From positions 1 to 22,934 of IMG/VR virus record IMGVR_UViG_3300049846_002201: DNA of 22,934 bases, one strand, 5' to 3'. The notes under the pieces were generated by a model, which saw only the letters and a program-made list of their open reading frames with translations, was not told the origin of the DNA and did not search any database. The stretch's first letter is position 1; every line of letters begins with the position of its first letter. Of this stretch, positions 1,134 through 22,808 are shown piece after piece. A program made the position numbers and the translations under genes. This stretch comes from a virus.

Positions 1134-1580
1134 TTACTTGCTCAACGTCTTAATGTCTTTTTTTAACTTTTGAATTAATTTCTTATCTGGCTTGATTGCC
1201 TGATGCTTTATCTCAGGTTTTTGATAAACCTCAATAGGAATAGGACCCACAATCTGTGTCTTTAACTTTATCTCTCGCGGGTAAGACCGATCTCTTAAAT
1301 CAATCTGAGACTTTCTAAGCTTCGCCATGTGTTCCTGCGCTTCTTCATTATCCTTAGAAAGTTCTGAGACTTTCTCCTCTACTTTTCCCATTCTATCAAC
1401 TGCATTTAAAACTTGCTGATCCGTTAGCTCAAGGCTCTTTTCAATATCTTTAATCTCTCCCTCTAAAAAACCCACCTGCTTTATAAGTTTAGCATAGTCG
1501 GTGTCCTCGGCTTTCGTATGCTTATAAATCCCATAGCCTACAAATATAACCGCGCAAATAAAAAAAACTGTAACATCCAT
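1134..1580 (-). CDS. Membrane-anchored coiled-coil protein
   Basis: 148 aa from the ATG at 1580, which has a perfect AGGAGG seven bases upstream; an in-frame ATG at 1601 would add seven residues (MKRGGLG) and has only a GAGAGG site. The N-terminus is a single hydrophobic span (MDVTVFFICAVIFVGYGIY) followed by Lys/His, then about 70 residues of heptad-like Glu/Lys/Leu sequence, a short proline-containing stretch and a basic tail. This is the topology of a type II membrane protein with an extended coiled coil. An inner-membrane spanin has a similar build, but there is no partner lipoprotein and the gene sits away from the endolysin, so I do not assign that role. Confidence 0.6.
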   Translation of the reverse strand: MDVTVFFICAVIFVGYGIYKHTKAEDTDYAKLIKQVGFLEGEIKDIEKSLELTDQQVLNAVDRMGKVEEKVSELSKDNEEAQEHMAKLRKSQIDLRDRSYPREIKLKTQIVGPIPIEVYQKPEIKHQAIKPDKKLIQKLKKDIKTLSK

Positions 1581-1613
1581 TCCTAACCCTCCTCGCTTCA
1601 TGTTAACCTCTCG

Positions 1614-1847
1614 TCAATGTAAATTTTCTTTCTTACTTATATCTCGATGCAACCAAACACTTAATCTAACTGTACCTTCTTTTTCTGCTCTTAATTCTTC
1701 GTTCCAAATGGGACTACAAATACAATCTTTCTGCGGCTCATGCAGTACAACATCTTCGCGTGGAATGACGTGAACATCCCCATCAATCTCTACTGCGTAG
1801 TACTCGTCCAACTGCACTATCCTAAAAATATTTATTTGACTGCTCAT
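1614..1847 (-). CDS. Hypothetical small phage protein with Cys pair
   Basis: 77 aa from the ATG at 1847 (MSSQINIF). A TTG three codons upstream (1856) is closer to a GGTAGGG sequence and is an alternative start. Visible features are a strand-rich N-terminal half (YYAVEIDGDVHVIPREDV) and the motif HEPQKDCICSPIW. This pattern, 'H-x-P/L-x-x-x-C-x-C-x-P', recurs in small phage proteins of unknown function. It is the first gene of the leftmost minus-strand group and starts only about 55 bp from the divergently transcribed primase gene, so the short gap 1848-1902 must hold control elements for both. Confidence 0.6.
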   Translation of the reverse strand: MSSQINIFRIVQLDEYYAVEIDGDVHVIPREDVVLHEPQKDCICSPIWNEELRAEKEGTVRLSVWLHRDISKKENLH

Positions 1848-1902
1848 TTTCTGCAAATATACCCTACCTTCAAGTCAGCAACTAAAACAAAGGAAATTTT
1901 TC

Positions 1903-4233
1903 ATGATCGAAATTAGACGCATACGAGAATATGTTATTCAAGGCAAGACAAGAAAAGCTGACAAACCTTTTGAACCTGCACTTTTTGTTGATAGCCTTAA
2001 TAATCTCTTCGACAAAAATCTACCTGAAATTATTGAAAAGATTCCAGAAAACGAAAGGTACAATTGCTACTACACTCTTGGCCATGCTCCTGATATTTCT
2101 GATACTAAATCTAGAAAGTGGAGCCATCAGGATGTAATTCCATTTGATATTGACAATTGCGAATATATAGATGAAAAACCAAACGCAGCATATTTAGACG
2201 CAATTGCAGAAGCGCTAAATGTAGACATAAAAAAATGTGTCGTTATCGCAACTGGAAATGGTCTCCAGGTTTTAGTAAAACCTAAGTTCATAATTAACGA
2301 CTCTAAATTTTTTGAACTGAACCAAAAACATTATAGTGCGCTATGCCTCCGAGTTGCTGACTGCCTCAAGGCTAGATCACTAAAGGGAGAGCCGGATGCC
2401 AGTGCGTTTCAACCTAACCGCCTCTTTCGGCTCCCCCTTACTCTTAACGTAAAACCCAAAAAACCAAAGCGCACCGCTACAATCATATCTGGAAACCTAG
2501 AGCCTATAGAGTTTGATCTTGCCAAAGCATCGGGGCTTCCAGTGGTAACTGACTCTGATTGTATTTCTGAAAAGGAACTTTCTTACTTCAAGATCGACAC
2601 CGCTGCCGTTGAATCGGGCTGCGACTTTTTGAAATATGCAAAGGACAACCAAAAAACTATCTCTGAACCGCAGTGGTATGCTTTACTTAGTATTGTGGGA
2701 CGTTTATCGAATGGTTCAGAGAAAGCACATCTCTACTCTAAGGGACACCCCAATTATACGGCACATGATACGGACCTTAAGTTAAAACAATCTTTAGAAT
2801 CTAGCGGGCCTAGGACCTGTGAGAATATTAATACTTTATGGGGTAAGTGTAAGGAATGCCCTAACTATAAGCGCGTAACGTCTCCTGTGTCAATAAAAAG
2901 CGAAAATTTTATTGCAACAGAAGATACAGGCTTCCACGCCTTAAATCCAAAGACAGGTAAAGTTGTGCCGCAGTACAGCGATCTACAAAAGTACTATGCA
3001 AGGTCTAATCCTTATGTTAATTTTTATAGATCCCACTACATTTATACCGGTAAATACTTCGTTGAAAAGCATGATGAAACCATTCCTGCGTTTGCACAGG
3101 ATAACTTTCGCCCGTCCTGCGACAACAATAAGGCCAGTGAGTTTTCAGGTTTAATCAAGCGCACCAACATTGTCGACCACGACTTTTTTTCAATTTCCAC
3201 TCGCCGAAAAATTAACCTCCTAAATGGCGTGCTAAATATTGAAACCATGCTACTAGAACCGCATAGCCCCCACATGGGTTTTAAATACTGCCTCCCATTT
3301 AACTACGACCCAATCGCCGATGCGCCATTGTTTAAGAAATTATTAAATGATGTCACCTGCAATGACGAAAACCTCCAAAAAATACTCCTCGAATTCATGG
3401 GCTTTGCCATTAGCGGAGATGACACCCCAGCCGATAAATTCCTCCTGCTCTCAGGCGAAGGTGCCAATGGAAAATCAACCTTCCTAAAAATACTCCGCGC
3501 CCTCGGTGGCGATGGTGTACGAAATATGACCGAAGCTAACATCATGAACCAATTCGACTCAGTAGCACTCGATGGCGCAAATTTCGTGATCCTAGAAGAA
3601 GTACCCAGCCATATCGATGCGGTGCTGTGGGAACGCCTCAAAGGACTAGTCACAGGCGGCACAGTACGAGCCTCCAAAAAAGGTAAAGACGCCTATGAGT
3701 TCGACTGCCGAGCTAAATTCATAGTTAGCGCCAATGCCCTACCAAAAGGCGCTACCCCCTCCCATGGCCTCTATAGACGCTTCCTGATCGTCCCATTTAA
3801 CGCTACCTTCGACCCGTCCCTGCCAGGCTTCGATCGCAATATAGCCTCTAAAATCATCGCAAATGAGCTGCCAGGGGTTCTAAACCTGGCCCTCGATGCC
3901 TACACAAACCTAAAAGCCAATGACTTCAACTACACCCACTCAGAAAAAGTCGACCAAGCTCTACGTGACTACATCATCGAATCAGATAACGTAGCCACTT
4001 GGGCCGAAGAATCGGTGGACTACTCACCAACAGCTAAGACTACAACAAAAGAATTCTATACCTCCTATGTGTCCTTCACAGAAGCAAATGGCGAACGACC
4101 AGTGTCGGCAAAAGCTCTCACCCAACGCCTAAGAGCTTGGTGCAAAAGAAAAGGAATTGACGCGGAGTATAGTCGAGACAAAAACTCACGCATATTTTTA
4201 GGCGTTTTGCTTAAAAAACAGGCAGATTTCTAA
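1903..4233 (+). CDS. Bifunctional primase-helicase: AEP-like primase plus D5/SF3 superfamily helicase
   Basis: 776 aa. The N-terminal part resembles archaeo-eukaryotic-type (AEP) primase-polymerases: a DxD metal pair in IPFDIDNCE (Asp82, Asp84), the second motif as GNGLQV (118-123) and a third region QPNRLFRLPLTLNVK (170-184). A Cys set (C306, C316, C319, perhaps C240) may bind zinc. The C-terminal half is a D5-type SF3 helicase: Walker A GEGANGKST (518-526), Walker B VILEE (562-566), motif C IVSAN (607-611), arginine finger RR (625-626), then a winged-helix tail (about 712-770). Such proteins prime and unwind at phage or plasmid origins. The start has AAGGAAA upstream. The gene stands alone on the plus strand between two minus-strand groups. 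Oddity: Gln replaces the usual His in motif II. Confidence 0.9.
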   Translation: MIEIRRIREYVIQGKTRKADKPFEPALFVDSLNNLFDKNLPEIIEKIPENERYNCYYTLGHAPDISDTKSRKWSHQDVIPFDIDNCEYIDEKPNAAYLDAIAEALNVDIKKCVVIATGNGLQVLVKPKFIINDSKFFELNQKHYSALCLRVADCLKARSLKGEPDASAFQPNRLFRLPLTLNVKPKKPKRTATIISGNLEPIEFDLAKASGLPVVTDSDCISEKELSYFKIDTAAVESGCDFLKYAKDNQKTISEPQWYALLSIVGRLSNGSEKAHLYSKGHPNYTAHDTDLKLKQSLESSGPRTCENINTLWGKCKECPNYKRVTSPVSIKSENFIATEDTGFHALNPKTGKVVPQYSDLQKYYARSNPYVNFYRSHYIYTGKYFVEKHDETIPAFAQDNFRPSCDNNKASEFSGLIKRTNIVDHDFFSISTRRKINLLNGVLNIETMLLEPHSPHMGFKYCLPFNYDPIADAPLFKKLLNDVTCNDENLQKILLEFMGFAISGDDTPADKFLLLSGEGANGKSTFLKILRALGGDGVRNMTEANIMNQFDSVALDGANFVILEEVPSHIDAVLWERLKGLVTGGTVRASKKGKDAYEFDCRAKFIVSANALPKGATPSHGLYRRFLIVPFNATFDPSLPGFDRNIASKIIANELPGVLNLALDAYTNLKANDFNYTHSEKVDQALRDYIIESDNVATWAEESVDYSPTAKTTTKEFYTSYVSFTEANGERPVSAKALTQRLRAWCKRKGIDAEYSRDKNSRIFLGVLLKKQADF

Positions 4234-4591
4234 AGGTGACACATCTTTAGAGGTGACTGATCTGTCATCGGTTTTTTAAAAGGTGAAAAAATTGTGCGAG
4301 GTGGCATTTGCTGCGGTGTGATGCGAATTTCGCTGTGACGCGGGTTGTATATGTCCCTCAATCGGTCATCTGTCACCGATCGGTCACCGTATAACTATCT
4401 GAAAATATTGATCTAGTGACAGATATGACAGATATGACATATATATTATATTATAGTATATGTATATTATATTGCGTATGTAGGTGTGTACACGTGCAAT
4501 CACCACAATATCTATTATACTATAGCGCGAGTTAAAAACAATGTGTCACATGTCACATCAGTCACCCGCCTAAAAAATAGGCAAAATTTCG
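4234..4591. other. AT-rich repeat-bearing gap, candidate replication origin
   Basis: This 358-bp gap after the primase-helicase contains no convincing gene. It is full of GTGAC/TGTCA-type words: GGTGAC at 4235 and 4252, TGTCA at 4263, an ATCGGT/ACCGAT inverted repeat at 4361-4380 and CGGTCACCG directly after it. Three tandem 9-mers lie at 4417-4443 (TGACAGATA, TGACAGATA, TGACATATA), then an almost pure A/T run to about 4471. ATGTGTCACAT and TGTCACA repeats lie near 4541-4557, and GTCACC at 4561. Short iterated sites beside an easily melted A/T tract, next to the replicative primase-helicase, fit an origin. Control of the flanking genes is the alternative. Confidence 0.45.
4417..4443 (+). repeat. 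Three tandem 9-bp repeats (TGACAGATA)
   Basis: TGACAGATA at 4417-4425 and 4426-4434, then TGACATATA at 4435-4443 (one mismatch), leading into an A/T-only stretch. They share the TGACA word with scattered sites across 4235-4566. Iterons of an origin or binding sites of a repressor are the likely uses. Confidence 0.8.
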
Positions 4592-4828
4592 TTAAAAATG
4601 ACGCAGCGCTTTTTTGGCGTATTTTTTGGCTATAATTTCGCGCATTTTTTTGATCGAAATTTTGGTGAAAAATTGGTTGCCGACCTTGTATAAATTTGGC
4701 GAAAGGATGCGCTGCATTTCTTTTGTGCTACAATAGTTCATCAGGCCTTGGCTTGCGACTACGTGGTACCATAGCAACTCTATGGAGGGAATTGCTAGGT
4801 TCCACTGGTCGACCTTAGGCACACTCAT
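4592..4828 (-). CDS. Hypothetical small phage protein
   Basis: 78 aa with a strongly basic C-terminal half (KKMREIIAKKYAKKALRH). The middle, GLMNYCSTKEMQRILSPNLYKVGNQFF, may be a helix-turn-helix-like or loader-type fold, but I do not recognise a family. The start overlaps the stop of the upstream gene by ATGA (4825-4828). It is the last gene of a five-gene overlapping minus-strand operon. A short inverted repeat, GCCTA/TAGGC at 4568-4582, lies just past its stop, but no U-run follows, so it is at best a weak terminator. Confidence 0.6.
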   Translation of the reverse strand: MSVPKVDQWNLAIPSIELLWYHVVASQGLMNYCSTKEMQRILSPNLYKVGNQFFTKISIKKMREIIAKKYAKKALRHF

Positions 4829-5136
4829 TTAACGATGCCTAGGGCTTTGTCTAGGACTTTTGAGATACGTGCAATGGCGGCCCTTATAACAACAATATCG
4901 GGCTCCTGCCCTAGCTCAACGTCTATCAAAATGCTTGTAAGATCCCTTTGAGACTTTTGTAAGGCTTCGACCATATCTGGCGCACTGGCAACCAAGGTGG
5001 CGTTAGCTTTGCACTCGCCAATATCAAACCAAGTGTTGTCAAAATCGGCCAACTCATAAAGGCCACCCTTTTCCAGGTCGACAAAAACCATGGTGTCTAA
5101 CTTGGTGAACCATGGTCCAGGTGTATGTTTAGTCAT
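4825..5136 (-). CDS. TPGPW-type hypothetical phage protein
   Basis: 103 aa. It opens with MTKHTPGPWF and carries ANATLVASAPDMVEALQKS (residues about 44-62). The pair 'H-T-P-G-P-W' and 'A-N-A-x-L-V/I-A-x-A-P-x-M-L/V-x-A-L' marks a very widespread family of small phage proteins whose function is unknown. They usually sit in early accessory regions, as here. Start and stop each overlap neighbouring genes by ATGA, so the gene is translated within a coupled operon. No membrane segment or catalytic motif is seen. Confidence 0.8.
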   Translation of the reverse strand: MTKHTPGPWFTKLDTMVFVDLEKGGLYELADFDNTWFDIGECKANATLVASAPDMVEALQKSQRDLTSILIDVELGQEPDIVVIRAAIARISKVLDKALGIVK

Positions 5137-5432
5137 GGCTGCCCCCCAATATATTCTTTTATGGCTTTATACGTAAATTTGATGTTTAGTTTTTTACAGG
5201 TTTTTTTAAATGCAGTGGACTCTTTGTTGTAGGCCCCTTTTTTGATGGCGGCTTCCATTCTAGAATATACTTCATCAAATTTGTCTACTTTCCAAGCATA
5301 CTCTTCTGGTCTTGTTTCTACAGCATGGCGTAGCTGGAATTTGTACTCTGAAAGAAACTTTTCTAAGTTAGTCATGTTTTCCCTTTCTCTATAGGCCTTT
5401 ACTTTTTGCAGTAATATTTCTCTAGGTGTCAT
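5133..5432 (-). CDS. Conserved hypothetical phage protein
   Basis: 99 aa. The region from residue 20 (MTNLEKFLSEY) through PEEYAW and the C-terminal AFKKTCKKLNIKFTYKAIKEYI matches a pattern I recognise in many phage proteins of unknown function ('AFK-x-T-C-K-x-L-x-I-K-x-T-Y-x-A-I-x-x-Y/F-L'). Two starts compete. Met20 has GAAAGGG upstream and is where relatives often begin. The ATG at 5432 has GAGGAAGGG and overlaps the stop of the 50-aa gene upstream (TAATG), which supports translational coupling. I keep 5432. The end overlaps the next gene by ATGA. Confidence 0.75.
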   Translation of the reverse strand: MTPREILLQKVKAYRERENMTNLEKFLSEYKFQLRHAVETRPEEYAWKVDKFDEVYSRMEAAIKKGAYNKESTAFKKTCKKLNIKFTYKAIKEYIGGQP

Positions 5433-5584
5433 TAGTATAACCCTTCCTCAAATTCGATTGCGCTATTAAGCTGCGTTAGTAGTGTTTTCATTTCTAGTCG
5501 TGTTCCAAAGAATACGACTTTTTTTGTTTTCTTGCAGATTATTGACCATCTATTTTTGCGCTTAACTAGTTTGAAACTTAGCAT
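5432..5584 (-). CDS. 50-aa basic hypothetical protein
   Basis: A short reading frame that fills an otherwise empty gap. It begins MLSFKLVKRKNRWSIICKKT and ends NSAIEFEEGLY. Its ATG lies inside the end of the upstream gene (ATGCTAA, 5578-5584), and its TAA shares one base with the ATG of the next gene at 5432. Both junctions match the overlapping style of the whole operon, which is the main evidence that it is real. The N-terminal half is strongly basic; the C-terminal tail is acidic. No family is recognised. Confidence 0.65.
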   Translation of the reverse strand: MLSFKLVKRKNRWSIICKKTKKVVFFGTRLEMKTLLTQLNSAIEFEEGLY

Positions 5585-6174
5585 TTTGTAGCCTTATCTT
5601 CTGAAAGAATTTGGTCAAGTTCTGGTTGCAAGATTGGGTTTAAGTAATATTTTTCCATTACGTCTAGGTAAGGAATAAATTCAGGTTTACCTAAATTGGA
5701 TAACTTATAGTAGCACCGCAAGTATTCGACTCTAGTCATTGCTTTATTCTTTTCATACTCTGCATTTTCTAATCTCTCTAAGTGGCCGGGAGTAAATAAG
5801 CAGCCACGCACTTGCTTTAAATCATTGTCGATAACTAACAGAGAGCAACCATCATTATTGTCACCATGGCTTGGTAGAATTTGTCCATTTTTGCTGATTA
5901 GGTATTGATTTTCATTGTGAACCATTGAGATTGTATCCGAAAGGCTAACGCCATAAGTGGCTTTTACTGCCGTCTCAATTTCTCTACTGTCAGAGCAACA
6001 GTAGTTTGACCATTCATTGCCGTGCTTTAGTTTGTTGGCTTCAAGTAACTTTGCGAGTCTAGTTAAATTTGTTGGTGGGTTTATACCGTTGCACCACTGA
6101 TGATGAAAAGCTCCTAGTGCTTTGTAAGCATTATCCTTTTTACTAACGATATAAATTTGATGGCGCTGGCCCAT
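5578..6174 (-). CDS. MGQRHQ-type conserved hypothetical protein
   Basis: 198 aa. The N-terminus MGQRHQIYIVSKKDNAYKAL followed by FHHQWCNG (residues 23-30) is distinctive. I recall this MGQRHQ...HHQW signature from phage proteins and from a set of uncharacterised fungal proteins, with no proven function. The conserved His, Arg and Gln residues in the first 30 positions suggest a binding or catalytic site. The rest has a strand-rich middle with GDNNDGCSLLVIDND. The start has GAGG five bases upstream (CGAGGAAAAAATG). It is the first gene of the overlapping minus-strand operon; the 90-bp gap upstream carries a palindrome and a hairpin. Confidence 0.75.
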   Translation of the reverse strand: MGQRHQIYIVSKKDNAYKALGAFHHQWCNGINPPTNLTRLAKLLEANKLKHGNEWSNYCCSDSREIETAVKATYGVSLSDTISMVHNENQYLISKNGQILPSHGDNNDGCSLLVIDNDLKQVRGCLFTPGHLERLENAEYEKNKAMTRVEYLRCYYKLSNLGKPEFIPYLDVMEKYYLNPILQPELDQILSEDKATKC

Positions 6175-6211
6175 TTTTTCCTCGATTCTAGTCTGTTTTT
6201 AGACTTTTTGT

Positions 6212-6225
6212 GTGCGTAATTGCAC
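6212..6225. promoter_or_regulatory. Palindrome GTGCGTAATTGCAC
   Basis: This 14-mer has GTGC/GCAC arms. It matches GTGCATAATTGCAC at 6618-6631 except at one base, and shares TAATTGCAC with the inverted copy at 6663-6673. It lies upstream of the 198-aa gene on the minus strand, a position expected for an operator. The regulator is unknown. Confidence 0.5.
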
Positions 6226-6232
6226 AAGTTAA

Positions 6233-6252
6233 CCCACGACTTGAGTCATGGG
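6233..6252 (-). terminator. Hairpin after the shortened DUF932-like gene
   Basis: On the minus strand: CCCATGAC, loop TCAA, GTCGTGGG. This is an 8-bp stem with one G-U pair, which would be a C-A mismatch on the plus strand, so the minus transcript is the likely functional form. It begins 12 bases after the stop of the upstream gene. No clear U-run follows, so it may be a weak terminator or a processing or stability hairpin. Confidence 0.4.
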
Positions 6253-6264
6253 CTAAGTGTGAAA

Positions 6265-6598
6265 TTATCTTTTTTGTGCGGCTATCGCTAAACCATTATT
6301 TATGTTGTGTGCCGCTAACGCTCTATTTTGTTCAAATAAGCGCTCAAAATATTGTGTAGGGACATCACAATAGGTGGCTAGTTTTCTTTGCGCGAAGGGA
6401 TTCATATTTAGAAAAGTGTTTTCATTGCCTTTGCGATAGCCTAACCTACCGTCATTGAGCATAGCCATGTTATTAACTGGCACAACCACGTCAATTTTGT
6501 TGTCGTCAATATACTTTAATTTTTGCAGCATGTTTTCTGCTTTATTGTTGAGCGCTATTGCTGAACGCTATTGCTGAACGCTCTAAGTTAGTTAGCAT
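6265..6598 (-). pseudogene. Frameshifted, truncated DUF932-like gene
   Basis: The only well-placed start is the ATG at 6598, with AGGAG seven bases upstream. From it the frame reads MLTNLERSAIAFSNSAQQ and stops at 6542. The following 88-aa frame (6265-6531) has no good ribosome site. A 13-bp tandem duplication at 6553-6578 explains this: with one copy removed, the start at 6598 joins the second frame with no stop, giving a 106-aa product. The second frame contains MNPFAQRKLATYCDVPTQYF and later ALAAHNIN, a pattern I associate with the N-terminal part of DUF932 phage/plasmid proteins, which are usually around 300 aa. The gene is thus also short at its C-terminus. Reinitiation at 6531 could still give an 88-aa protein. 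Confidence 0.7.
6553..6578 (-). repeat. 13-bp tandem duplication (cgctattgctgaa x2)
   Basis: Two exact copies of cgctattgctgaa at 6553-6565 and 6566-6578, followed by a further cgct. Thirteen is not a multiple of three, so the extra copy shifts the reading frame that begins at 6598. Deleting one copy restores an open frame into the downstream gene. Confidence 0.95.
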
Positions 6599-6799: not shown

Positions 6800-6827
6800 A
6801 AAATACACTTTTTTAATATATAGTCAA
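6800..6827 (-). promoter_or_regulatory. Sigma70-like promoter, leftward
   Basis: Read on the minus strand: TTGACT (6827-6822) as -35, a 16-base spacer, then TATTTT (6805-6800) as -10. It would drive the 28-aa peptide gene and perhaps the rest of the leftward operon. The match is good at -35 (5 of 6) and fair at -10 (4 of 6). Confidence 0.5.
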
Positions 6828-6867
6828 CAAAAAAGCGCTAAATGATACCCCCGCAGCTCCGCATCAT

Positions 6868-7254
6868 ATAATCTTTTAAAGTCAACCAAAACAGTGCGAG
6901 CGGAAAACATTACACACTGGCGCACCGATTCGCGCGACCTGAATCTTTTACACTCGAGACTATAGTTTTTACACGCTTGGAGATGACGAATATTTTACAA
7001 TCGGCCGTGTAGTTTCTTCACCGATTCTGCGCAGCTTTTATACTGTAATTCTTACATGCACCGCTTCGGTGGGTAATTATTACAATTAGGCCGGCCATGT
7101 AATAAATACACAGCAGCACAGCATCTTTTACACATGTAATTTTTACCGGAGCGCATATAAGTTCTATATGTGTAATGGTTTCAATGATCCTGTAGATTCT
7201 ATACGTGTAACTTTTACAATGAAGCGTGTAGAGATTATCTATGTAAAACTTTTA
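6868..7254. repeat. Array of degenerate 13-bp dyads, TGTAA-N3-TTACA
   Basis: Perfect copies start at 7044 (TGTAATTCTTACA) and 7206 (TGTAACTTTTACA). Near-perfect copies start at 7072, 7098, 7135 and 7171. More degenerate copies, mostly keeping one good half, start at 6940, 6961, 6987, 7008, 7030, 7120, 7191, 7227 and 7242; weaker ones start at 6868 and 6902. From 6940 on, starts are 14 to 36 bases apart, often near 15 or 21. No gene is convincing here. The array fills most of the 541-bp gap between the leftward operon and the terminase genes. Rows of symmetric sites usually bind a dimeric protein: candidates are small terminase (pac/cos), a replication initiator, or a repressor or activator of the late operon. 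Confidence 0.75.
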
Positions 7255-7256
7255 GA

Positions 7257-7309
7257 CCCCGGGGGTGGGGGCATGGAGCGATTTAAAATTTATAGTCCCC
7301 GCGCCCCCG
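7257..7309. other. GC-rich long hairpin just upstream of terS
   Basis: In an otherwise AT-rich region, CCCCGGGGGTGGGGG (7257-7271) is followed by CCCCGCGCCCCCG (7297-7309). CGGGGG (7260-7265) pairs with CCCCCG (7304-7309), and GGGG (7267-7270) with CCCC (7297-7300), around a 26-base AT-rich loop. No U-run follows. The position between the dyad array and terS would suit a packaging site or a transcription barrier, but function is unproven. Confidence 0.5.
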
Positions 7310-7368
7310 AAAAAAATGCCAAAAAATTTGGGGTTGGCACCGCTGCAAAACGCTGGTTTACTTAGGGA

Positions 7369-8190
7369 ATGATTGGAAGAAGTGGAGTTATAGCTGGCGG
7401 AAAGTCTGTGAGTAACGATCTCAAATCGAATGAGATCGCTATAAAGGAATTTAACAATCCGAGATCAGTTGCATATATGGTACCAAAGGCCATTAAAGCG
7501 CTTATAGAGGAGTTAGATCCATGGATGTTGGGGTGTTCTGAGCGGGAGCTTAGGACGAAGTTAAAGCCTGACGAGTTGGATGAGACTTTGCGGTTGGCAT
7601 TTTGGGATGAGTATACGGTGGCGGTGGATGCGAAGAGGCCGATGAATATGACGAATGTTTATATACGGCTTTGTTCGAAGGAGATGTTTTACAAGAAGTT
7701 TATTACGGTGCCGTTGAGGCTTGCGTATATGTTGAGGCCTCCGATGGATTACACGTATAAGATGCGTGATCTTTTGGAGATAGGTCATCGTCGGATGCGG
7801 GAGGTTTTGGAGTTACCAATTTTGAATAAGCAGGGGAATCCTGATGCGAAGTTGATTGCGGAGATGGTTAAGATTGTGGCGTTGGTGGAGAACAGGGTGC
7901 GTGGGGCGGTGGTGCAGAAGGTTCAGATGGAGCAGAAGAGTTTGAATATAAATGTGGATGCTCCGAAGGATTATTTTGAGATTTCTGATGAGCTTGAGAA
8001 GATTGAAAAGGAGATAAAGCTAATGGAGGCTGGTGATGGGGGATTCGGAAGCGCTGAAGAAAAAGCGCTTATTGAAGCAGAGGAAGTTAGAGTTATTGAA
8101 GGAACGCGAGCAGATGAAGATGGATCTTCCGCATCTGTACGGGCCGAAGTTTTACCAGTGGCAGAAGGATTATTTCGAGTCGAAGAATAG
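7369..8190 (+). CDS. Putative terminase small subunit
   Basis: 273 aa. Assigned mainly by position directly before the large terminase and by its mainly helical, basic-then-acidic make-up; sequence motifs of small terminases are weak. Such proteins bind the packaging site on DNA and hand it to the large subunit. The ATG at 7369 has AGGG almost touching it, and an in-frame stop lies two codons upstream; a GTG at 7408 is an alternative start. The C-terminal 50 or so residues, Glu/Ala-rich, are read across the first 155 bases of terL in another frame, an unusually long overlap. From about 7540 the gene has markedly G-ending codons, unlike its first 150 bases. Confidence 0.65.
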   Translation: MIGRSGVIAGGKSVSNDLKSNEIAIKEFNNPRSVAYMVPKAIKALIEELDPWMLGCSERELRTKLKPDELDETLRLAFWDEYTVAVDAKRPMNMTNVYIRLCSKEMFYKKFITVPLRLAYMLRPPMDYTYKMRDLLEIGHRRMREVLELPILNKQGNPDAKLIAEMVKIVALVENRVRGAVVQKVQMEQKSLNINVDAPKDYFEISDELEKIEKEIKLMEAGDGGFGSAEEKALIEAEEVRVIEGTRADEDGSSASVRAEVLPVAEGLFRVEE

Positions 8191-9574
8191 GGTAAATTTA
8201 ATATGCAGTGCCAACCAGATCGGTAAGTCGAGCGCTGCAATTCGCCGAACGATTGCAAATTGTACTGATCCGAAGCGGTGGGAGGAGATATACGAATCAA
8301 CTCCTCGACAGTTTTGGTATTTGTATCCGGACATTGCGACACTTCGTAGGGAGTGGAGTTCGAAGTGGGTTGCGGAGTATATGCCTCGGGGGAAGATGAA
8401 GAGTCATCCGCAGTATGGGTGGAAGGCTGTGATGGAGCGAGAGGCTCCGACAGTGGTGCATTTTAATTCTGGGATTGATTTATATTTCTTAACATACACT
8501 AAGGATTTGTCGTCGATTCAGGCCTCAACGGTGCATGAGATTACATCGGACGAGGAGCTTCCGGTTAATTTTTATGACGAGTTGATATTACGTTTGGCGG
8601 TGACGAACGGGGTATTCAACATGGTGTGTACTCCTACGCTTAATCAGCCATTTTGGAAGAGGGCGATGGAGTCGAGCGATGTTTTGCCGAATGCGTTTAA
8701 GCGGCAGGTGTCGATGTATGATTGTCTGACTTATTTTGATGGTAGTCCGAGCAAGGTTTTTACGGTTGAGAAGATTAAGAATGTTGAGGAGAAGTGTCGG
8801 AGTGAGGCGGAGAGGCAGCGTAGGGTTTGGGGAAAGTTTATAACTGAGGAGGGTCGGGAGTATTTTGCGTATGATCCTGAGAGGAATCGATGTCAGCGGG
8901 CTGGGACGAACGGATGGCATGTGCATGTGGGTGTGGATTATGGCAGTGGTGGTACTGACGGGCATCCTTCGGCGATAGTGTTTGTTAAGGTTAGGCCGGA
9001 CTACAAAAAGGGTGTTGTGCACAAGGCTTGGCGTGGGGATGGGGTTAAGACTACGTGTGGGGATTTGTTCAATAAATATGTGGATATGTTGGGTAATGAT
9101 CTTCCTGTGCGTAGGGTTTATGACTTTGCGGCGGCGGATTTCCATGCGATTGCGGAGCGGAATGGGGAGACATTTCAGAGGGCGAATAAGTCTAAATCTT
9201 TAGGTAGAGAGGTGCTTAACACTTTATTTAAGTTTGGGATGTTAGATATATACGAGGGAGATATTGAGCTTGATAAGTTATCGGGGGAGCTTTTAACGGT
9301 TATGACCGATTCCAAGGCTAATGTCAACGATTTATCTGATGCTCTTAGGTACTGTGTGGTTGACATTCCGTGGGATTTTGAAAGCATAAGGGATAACAAC
9401 GAAGACCCAGACAAAAAGATGGCTCCAGTGAAGCTTACGCCAGAGCAACTTATGGCGGAGCAAGTAAGTTTGAGAAGGGGCGAGGGTTCTTTGTATTTTA
9501 AGGACGAAGAGCTAGTTCAGGGTGGGGATTTAAGTGAAGAGTTCGACTACTGGAACGAAGAGTACGGCGGGTAG
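8036..9574 (+). CDS. Terminase large subunit (ATPase-nuclease)
   Basis: 512 aa from the ATG at 8036, preceded by GGAGG; a GTG one codon earlier is possible. It is the packaging motor that moves DNA into the prohead and cuts it. After a Lys-rich helix come DLPHLYGPKFYQWQKDYFES, typical of this terminase group, then Walker A SANQIGKSS (about 58-66), Walker B EITSDEEL (about 168-175), and coupling motif CTPTLNQ (about 198-204). The C-terminal RNase H-like nuclease shows VGVDYGSGGTDGHPSA (Asp near 301), VYDFAAADF (Asp near 363) and NDLSDALRY (Asp near 435). All key residues are present. P22 gp2 is of similar size (499 aa). Codon use is strongly G-ending from the start to about 9170, then returns to the AT-rich style. 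Confidence 0.92.
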   Translation: MGDSEALKKKRLLKQRKLELLKEREQMKMDLPHLYGPKFYQWQKDYFESKNRVNLICSANQIGKSSAAIRRTIANCTDPKRWEEIYESTPRQFWYLYPDIATLRREWSSKWVAEYMPRGKMKSHPQYGWKAVMEREAPTVVHFNSGIDLYFLTYTKDLSSIQASTVHEITSDEELPVNFYDELILRLAVTNGVFNMVCTPTLNQPFWKRAMESSDVLPNAFKRQVSMYDCLTYFDGSPSKVFTVEKIKNVEEKCRSEAERQRRVWGKFITEEGREYFAYDPERNRCQRAGTNGWHVHVGVDYGSGGTDGHPSAIVFVKVRPDYKKGVVHKAWRGDGVKTTCGDLFNKYVDMLGNDLPVRRVYDFAAADFHAIAERNGETFQRANKSKSLGREVLNTLFKFGMLDIYEGDIELDKLSGELLTVMTDSKANVNDLSDALRYCVVDIPWDFESIRDNNEDPDKKMAPVKLTPEQLMAEQVSLRRGEGSLYFKDEELVQGGDLSEEFDYWNEEYGG

Positions 9575-22249: not shown

Positions 22250-22265
22250 CATAAAGGAGTAAGAA

Positions 22266-22808
22266 ATGAGTTTAGCGAATGACAAACGCGAGTCATTCCC
22301 AACGCTAGAGGATGCGAGTGGGGAAGGTTCGGCGTTAAGCCAGATGCAGCAGGGTGATTCACCTGTGCTGAAAAATGGTGCGATTGGTTTTGCATTTCGT
22401 GACAGTGCAGGCAACGTGGTGCTCCCACAATTGTTGCCTACTGGCGCTGTTCCAGTAGATCAAGGTGCGCCTGGCACTCCGATCATGGACCGAGATGAAA
22501 ACGCAGGAAGTCTAACACCTGTTGACGTTGCATCGTTAACATTAACAGCATCAGAAACTTACTGTGACGTTGCAGCAATTGTTTCTTGTTTTCAGGAAAC
22601 ATTGTTTGAGCTTGTTCAAGTGAACAATGCGACAACAACAGTTCTTGCCGACATTCTAGTTGGTCCTGGTCAATACACATTCAAACTCGATTACGAGGAT
22701 TGTGTTGCTGCTGGTGCTACTGGAACGCAAGTGCTCAAAATCAGAGGTACAAATTTTAAGAAAACATCAACAATGCGCGCAACTCTTCGTGCGACAGAAG
22801 TTGCGTAA
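22266..22808 (+). CDS. Hypothetical virion-associated protein
   Basis: 180 aa with AAGGAG upstream. The N-terminal 90 residues are Gly/Pro/Ala-rich with a loose extended character (GSALSQMQQGDSPVLKNGAI, GAPGTPIMDRDENAG). The C-terminal half is a beta-sandwich-like domain (ASLTLTASETYCDVAAIV, YTFKLDYEDCVAAGATG, VLKIRGTNFKKTSTMRATLR). This build suits a secreted or particle-surface structural protein. No family is recognised. Confidence 0.55.
   Translation: MSLANDKRESFPTLEDASGEGSALSQMQQGDSPVLKNGAIGFAFRDSAGNVVLPQLLPTGAVPVDQGAPGTPIMDRDENAGSLTPVDVASLTLTASETYCDVAAIVSCFQETLFELVQVNNATTTVLADILVGPGQYTFKLDYEDCVAAGATGTQVLKIRGTNFKKTSTMRATLRATEVA

Follow-up and report, generated by a model that had tools for sequence, protein, structure and literature searches.

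The question raised by this locus is what a dense array of short dyads is for, lying as it does in the non-coding gap before the terminase genes of an uncultured phage. The initial annotation, which described the 13-bp dyads (TGTAA-N3-TTACA), offered four functions: terminase recognition region, replication iterons, partition centromere or operator cluster. Comparison with related phages narrows these functions but does not settle them – the operator option survives best, and the terminase-recognition and main-origin options are weakened.

The window, meaning the whole stretch of DNA analysed, is an IMG/VR fragment of 22,934 bp. Two relatives that are circular by end overlap are about 41 kb, so the window represents roughly half of a genome. 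It encodes a D5/DUF5906-type primase-helicase of 776 amino acids (1903–4233, plus strand), identified by family searches (PHROG, Pfam), and a leftward early operon of small genes (4592–6531, minus strand) in which no DNA-binding regulator was recognised. The rightward late operon consists, in order, of a presumed small terminase gene (terS), the large terminase gene (terL), a portal gene, a probable scaffold gene and a probable major capsid protein (MCP) gene. The presumed terS (7369–8190, plus strand, 273 amino acids) is named from its position and the family-wide place of such a gene before terL; its product had no match in Pfam or PHROG, and its AF2 model had no clear match in the PDB. The large terminase ORF (8033–9574, plus strand) matches phrog_2 (E 9e-20), and its true start is probably near 8147. 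The scaffold and capsid genes, which are also named by position, had no PHROG or Pfam match.

None of the isolate phages searched matches the family: INPHARED gave no hit with the TerL, portal or MCP sequences or with the DNA of the array. MCP profiles retrieved at least 141 related IMG/VR contigs, all uncultured, of which 80 were kept, and a search of GTDB genomes with the MCP matched a single contig of a metagenome-assembled genome.

The array comprises about 17 dyads between 6902 and 7254, with no strand, as defined by sequence scan, shuffles and a matrix. Two dyads are perfect, TGTAATTCTTACA at 7044–7056 and TGTAACTTTTACA at 7206–7218, and four have one mismatch (starting at 7072, 7098, 7135 and 7171); the perfect ones are at the places given in the initial annotation. 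A further four have two mismatches (6902, 6940, 6961 and 7242), and the weaker copies, with at least three mismatches but recognisable half-sites, start at 6987, 7008, 7030, 7120, 7156, 7191 and 7227, with a weak outlier at 6867. The spacing between sites had been put at 14 to 36 bp; the lower bound holds and the upper is close, the observed range being 14 to 38 bp.

The array is a genuine cluster, ordered and far beyond chance. The region 6851–7260 contains 2 perfect dyads, 6 with at most one mismatch, 10 with at most two and 18 with at most three, compared to means of 0.001, 0.04, 0.45 and 3.1 in 5000 dinucleotide shuffles of the gap. No shuffle equalled the gap at any threshold, and the shuffle control, proposed earlier as one way to refute the array, bears it out. 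The excess does not depend on choosing the word in advance. When the best of all dyads of the form 5+gap+5 was sought, allowing up to one mismatch, it occurred 6 times in the gap and at most 3 times in any of 60 shuffles. With a 17-site matrix, the scan called for earlier, the density of sites at a score of 8 was about 80-fold higher inside the array than outside it, though the matrix was trained on the same sites. The word is not dispersed across the remainder of the window. Positions 4 and 10 of the dyad are invariant across the 17 listed sites, a selection-biased set.

The order is clearest on the right, where 7120–7254 holds four dyad-N2-dyad pairs (7120/7135, 7156/7171, 7191/7206 and 7227/7242), with 15 bp inside each pair and a period of 35–36 bp. 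The successive spacings are 15/21/15/20/15/21/15 bp, and the autocorrelation of the array peaks at 71/73, 35/36 and 15. Further left in the array the left halves decay, and TTACA, the right half, is still well preserved. Neither this decay nor the regular spacing on the right had been remarked on before.

The gap between the early and late operons, where the initial annotation placed the array, is the largest non-coding stretch in the window. The earlier view that the array holds no convincing gene also stands: the one candidate, a 65-amino-acid ORF at 7168–7365, has no homologue in relatives. The folding z of the gap is −2.2, mostly from a G/C stem; a structured RNA was rejected, the only Rfam match being sub-threshold and at chance level.

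To compare the same gap across the family, TerS was traced by profile, giving 56 ORFs and 48 non-redundant gaps, the window included. The gap before terS is conserved among relatives, but the array is not. Only the window and one relative, L298, have perfect dyads; the remaining 46 gaps together have 5 one-mismatch sites, with 1.5 expected. Lack of conservation in relatives, which had been named as a way to refute the array, is thus partly borne out: L298 has three perfect copies, and the other 46 gaps are without a clear dyad.

In L298 the three dyads are at 435, 467 and 499, 32 bp apart, before terS. Its capsid gene and, independently, the dyad pattern (as L091) led to this contig. A run of three exact copies occurs in only 12 stretches among 2.9 million IMG/VR contigs, so that a member of a small family is unlikely to be among them by chance; for a family of at least 141 contigs the chance is about 6e-4 (12 × 141 / 2.9 million, a post hoc estimate). 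L298 also has an unusual TerL ORF (1317–3911), which at 864 amino acids is far longer than those of its relatives and has an insert that resembles an intein.

Other gaps in the family have palindromes of other sequence. Six of the 48 score at least 10 for operator-like palindromes, compared to 0.8% in shuffles. CTTAT-N4-ATAAG and CGATAA..TTATCG are each common to distantly related members, which for CTTAT-N4-ATAAG are not each other's closest relatives. The best reading is that the recognised word changes between related phages, with most relatives using other words. The terS gap of L125 (3440–3590) has five copies of a 31–33 bp unit, GAGTGTTGTATTTTAGTCACATATATATA, that differs from the array of the window.

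What is conserved before terS is a G-rich element. In the window it is GGGGGTGGGGG (7261–7271, plus strand), which begins 7 bp after the end of the array and so abuts it. A C-rich partner, CCCCGCGCCCCC (7297–7308, plus strand), forms a long stem with it. The family form is GGGGGGTGGGGG(TC), often followed 25–45 bp on by a C-rich stretch, a partner present in many relatives. In 32 of the 48 gaps the element stands no more than about 400 bp ahead of terS (at 3891 in L004, 3814 in L125, 4059 in L126, 3798 in L134, 1626 in L144 and 3483 in L157, among others). Its density there is about 25-fold that in the remainder of these loci, and it has one or a few copies per record. Judged from sequence, this element and not the array is the better candidate for a packaging or cos landmark.

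Our preferred reading, put forward tentatively and at just short of an even chance, takes the array for a cluster of operators where the early genes meet the late ones, bound cooperatively by a dimeric protein and with a word that changes between phages. The sites are symmetric and lie in an intergenic regulatory gap. The recurrence of the dyads beside terS in L298 and the operator-like palindromes of other sequence in other family gaps also favour an operator. In the mechanism that we infer, a dimeric protein, encoded by the phage or, with lower probability, by the host, would recognise the symmetric TGTAA-N3-TTACA. Dimers would fill adjacent sites cooperatively, at 15 bp within a pair and ~36 bp from pair to pair. 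They would thus cover about 350 bp, with the leftward early promoter on one side and the presumed terS/terL late operon on the other. This coat would act as repressor or activator on one or both of the divergent transcripts, and would thereby contribute to the early/late expression switch. Related phages would exchange the recognised word, so that the gap of each relative carries its own dyads.

Some features of the array fit an operator less well. Seventeen sites are many for an operator, and at 15 and 36 bp they fall out of helical phase. A weak sigma-70-like candidate promoter, TTGACT-16-TATTTT (6800–6827, minus strand), lies just left of the array and points into the early genes, but the scan of the gap region gave 5 matches with 2.9 expected, barely above chance; it revealed no promoter clearly overlapping the sites and no clear rightward promoter. 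Searches for HTH_3, HTH_36, Lrp/AsnC and RHH_1 regulators were all negative in the window, which is about half of a genome. Cro-like HTH_3 genes were found in 6 of the 13 family records searched, so the usual phage-encoded regulators do exist in the family.

The same word is found beyond the family, in settings that also favour an operator. In L034, a different phage type, such dyads occupy a divergent gap ahead of the terminase genes, and L310–L315 have them beside an HTH_3 repressor-like gene. In L310 (4398–4496), L311, L313 and L315 the arrays are of TGTAATTTTTACA with 43-bp spacing, next to that repressor-like gene, and L310 and L315 also have an integrase-like gene nearby. G019 (L040, L319–L321; a 49,470-bp record) has 34 exact TGTAA-N3-TTACA palindromes dispersed genome-wide, nearly all of them TGTAAT[C/G]ATTACA; several overlap start codons, so that the encoded proteins begin Met-Ile-Thr. 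A 99-amino-acid early protein of the window (5133–5432) has a 45% identical homologue in L040 and no PHROG or INPHARED match. Its AF2 model is all helical (pLDDT 73), and Foldseek with this model gave no DNA-binding match. A link from this protein to the array was dropped: L040 had been included solely on account of its dyads, and these are the dispersed palindromes, often at start codons. Dense matches to the paired-dyad pattern that were inspected in viral contigs resemble coding repeats. In the literature search the exact consensus was not found as an array, in line with the earlier statement that no such array was known, and one of six spelled-out variants occurred in one paper. Reports on RA3 and phage 13 proved irrelevant to the array.

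An unlikely alternative, though one that stays alive, is that the dyads are iterons for a replication initiator and that the gap is an origin or a second origin. It survives because the same dyad is repeated inside HTH_36 initiator-like genes of two other phage types: L122 (5158–5281) and L013 (4036–4138), of one type, and L317 (11059–11139), of another. Those copies are mostly 21–26 bp apart, the layout of in-gene phage origins, and part of the window array is spaced at 21–22 and 26 bp; the GC skew also turns upward near 7200. The P335 replication gene had no TGTAA-N3-TTACA, only half-sites in opposite order. An HTH_36 protein is absent, however, from the window (a fragment) and from 12 other family records, and the array is missing from nearly all relatives.

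A better candidate for the origin is also at hand. Directly 3' of the primase gene is a repeat-rich, AT-rich region with GTGAC/GTCAC words (4231–4570, no strand), and the relatives examined also have repeats in this place, with a phage-specific word and usually around an AT-rich core: GGTTCC in G001 (9225–9500), TGTGTCC in G004r (22259–22560), TTGGGACA in G005r (35254–35560) and TTGCACCC in L157 (880–1260), with only weak repeats in G007. AT content reaches 0.73 there, compared to 0.52–0.68 in the terS gap, and in the window, G001 and G007 the cumulative GC skew reaches its minimum near the primase gene. By these sequence features the region at 4231–4570 is likely the better origin candidate, which weakens the case for the array as the main origin.

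Less probable again is that the small terminase recognises the dyads and starts packaging there, as at a pac or cosB-like site. Known terminase sites are often within or beside terS, and the array abuts the conserved G-rich element before terS; the dyads of L298 sit between that element and terS. However, the word does not vary together with terS. The TerS proteins of the window and L298 are 25% identical (rank 32 of 47), and those closest to the window, from L146 (42%) and L126 (39%), go with other dyads. Because TerS specificity may drift, this lowers the terminase reading without excluding it. The conserved element of the gap is moreover the G-rich one and not the array, and terS itself is named by position only.

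It is quite improbable that a host regulator, such as one of the Lrp/AsnC type, binds the sites, or that they serve partition or DNA wrapping. The dyad word occurs in unrelated phages too, and there is a precedent for cooperative palindrome arrays in the Lrp-type Ss-LrpB, which binds cooperatively to regularly spaced palindromic sites (consensus TTGCAAAATTTGCAA) and wraps the DNA (PMC4046817). Against this, the word is in very few family gaps, and an Lrp gene is absent from the phage records searched.

Slightly more doubtful is a decaying or non-functional repeat cluster from local duplication: only 2 of the 17 copies are perfect, the self-similarity at ~36 bp is that of local duplication and most relatives lack the array, but the dyads have stayed symmetric although the intervening spacers have diverged, positions 4 and 10 are invariant in the (selection-biased) listed sites, and L298 has perfect copies beside terS. 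Least probable is that the array and the G-rich element are one control unit, in which a dyad-coating protein would govern both the late promoter and terminase access to the packaging landmark, so that the switch from early to late genes and the initiation of packaging would both be set by one site, its word swapped between phages.

The comparison yields testable assignments for the three main control sites outside genes: the array as operators, the G-rich element as a landmark ahead of terS, and the post-primase repeats. Should the array prove to consist of operators whose word is exchanged between relatives, the family would be a natural series for how phage switches change specificity.

Among known systems, the operator clusters that tailed phages have at divergent promoters, early/late or lysis/lysogeny, are also made of short symmetric sites, in a divergent gap beside a late operon. 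The window array differs in having ~17 sites over 350 bp in a paired 15/36-bp order, and in that no repressor was recognised in the window and no evidence of lysogeny was seen in the family. The HTH_36/lambda-O-like iterons of L122, L013 and L317 are clusters of the same 13-bp dyad, but they lie inside an initiator gene and mostly at 21–26 bp, whereas the window array is intergenic and irregular, with no such gene seen. The cosB and pac sites bound by small terminase resemble it as a cluster beside terS and a candidate packaging landmark, but here the word does not follow terS and is not conserved in relatives. Lrp-type arrays such as that of Ss-LrpB share regularly spaced palindromes, bound there cooperatively by dimers; Ss-LrpB, however, is archaeal with a different consensus, and such a protein was not found in the phage records searched (PMC4046817). 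Operator clusters and iterons are known kinds of site; pairing at 15/36 bp next to a conserved G-rich element, in a family without known isolates, sets this array apart as a variant.
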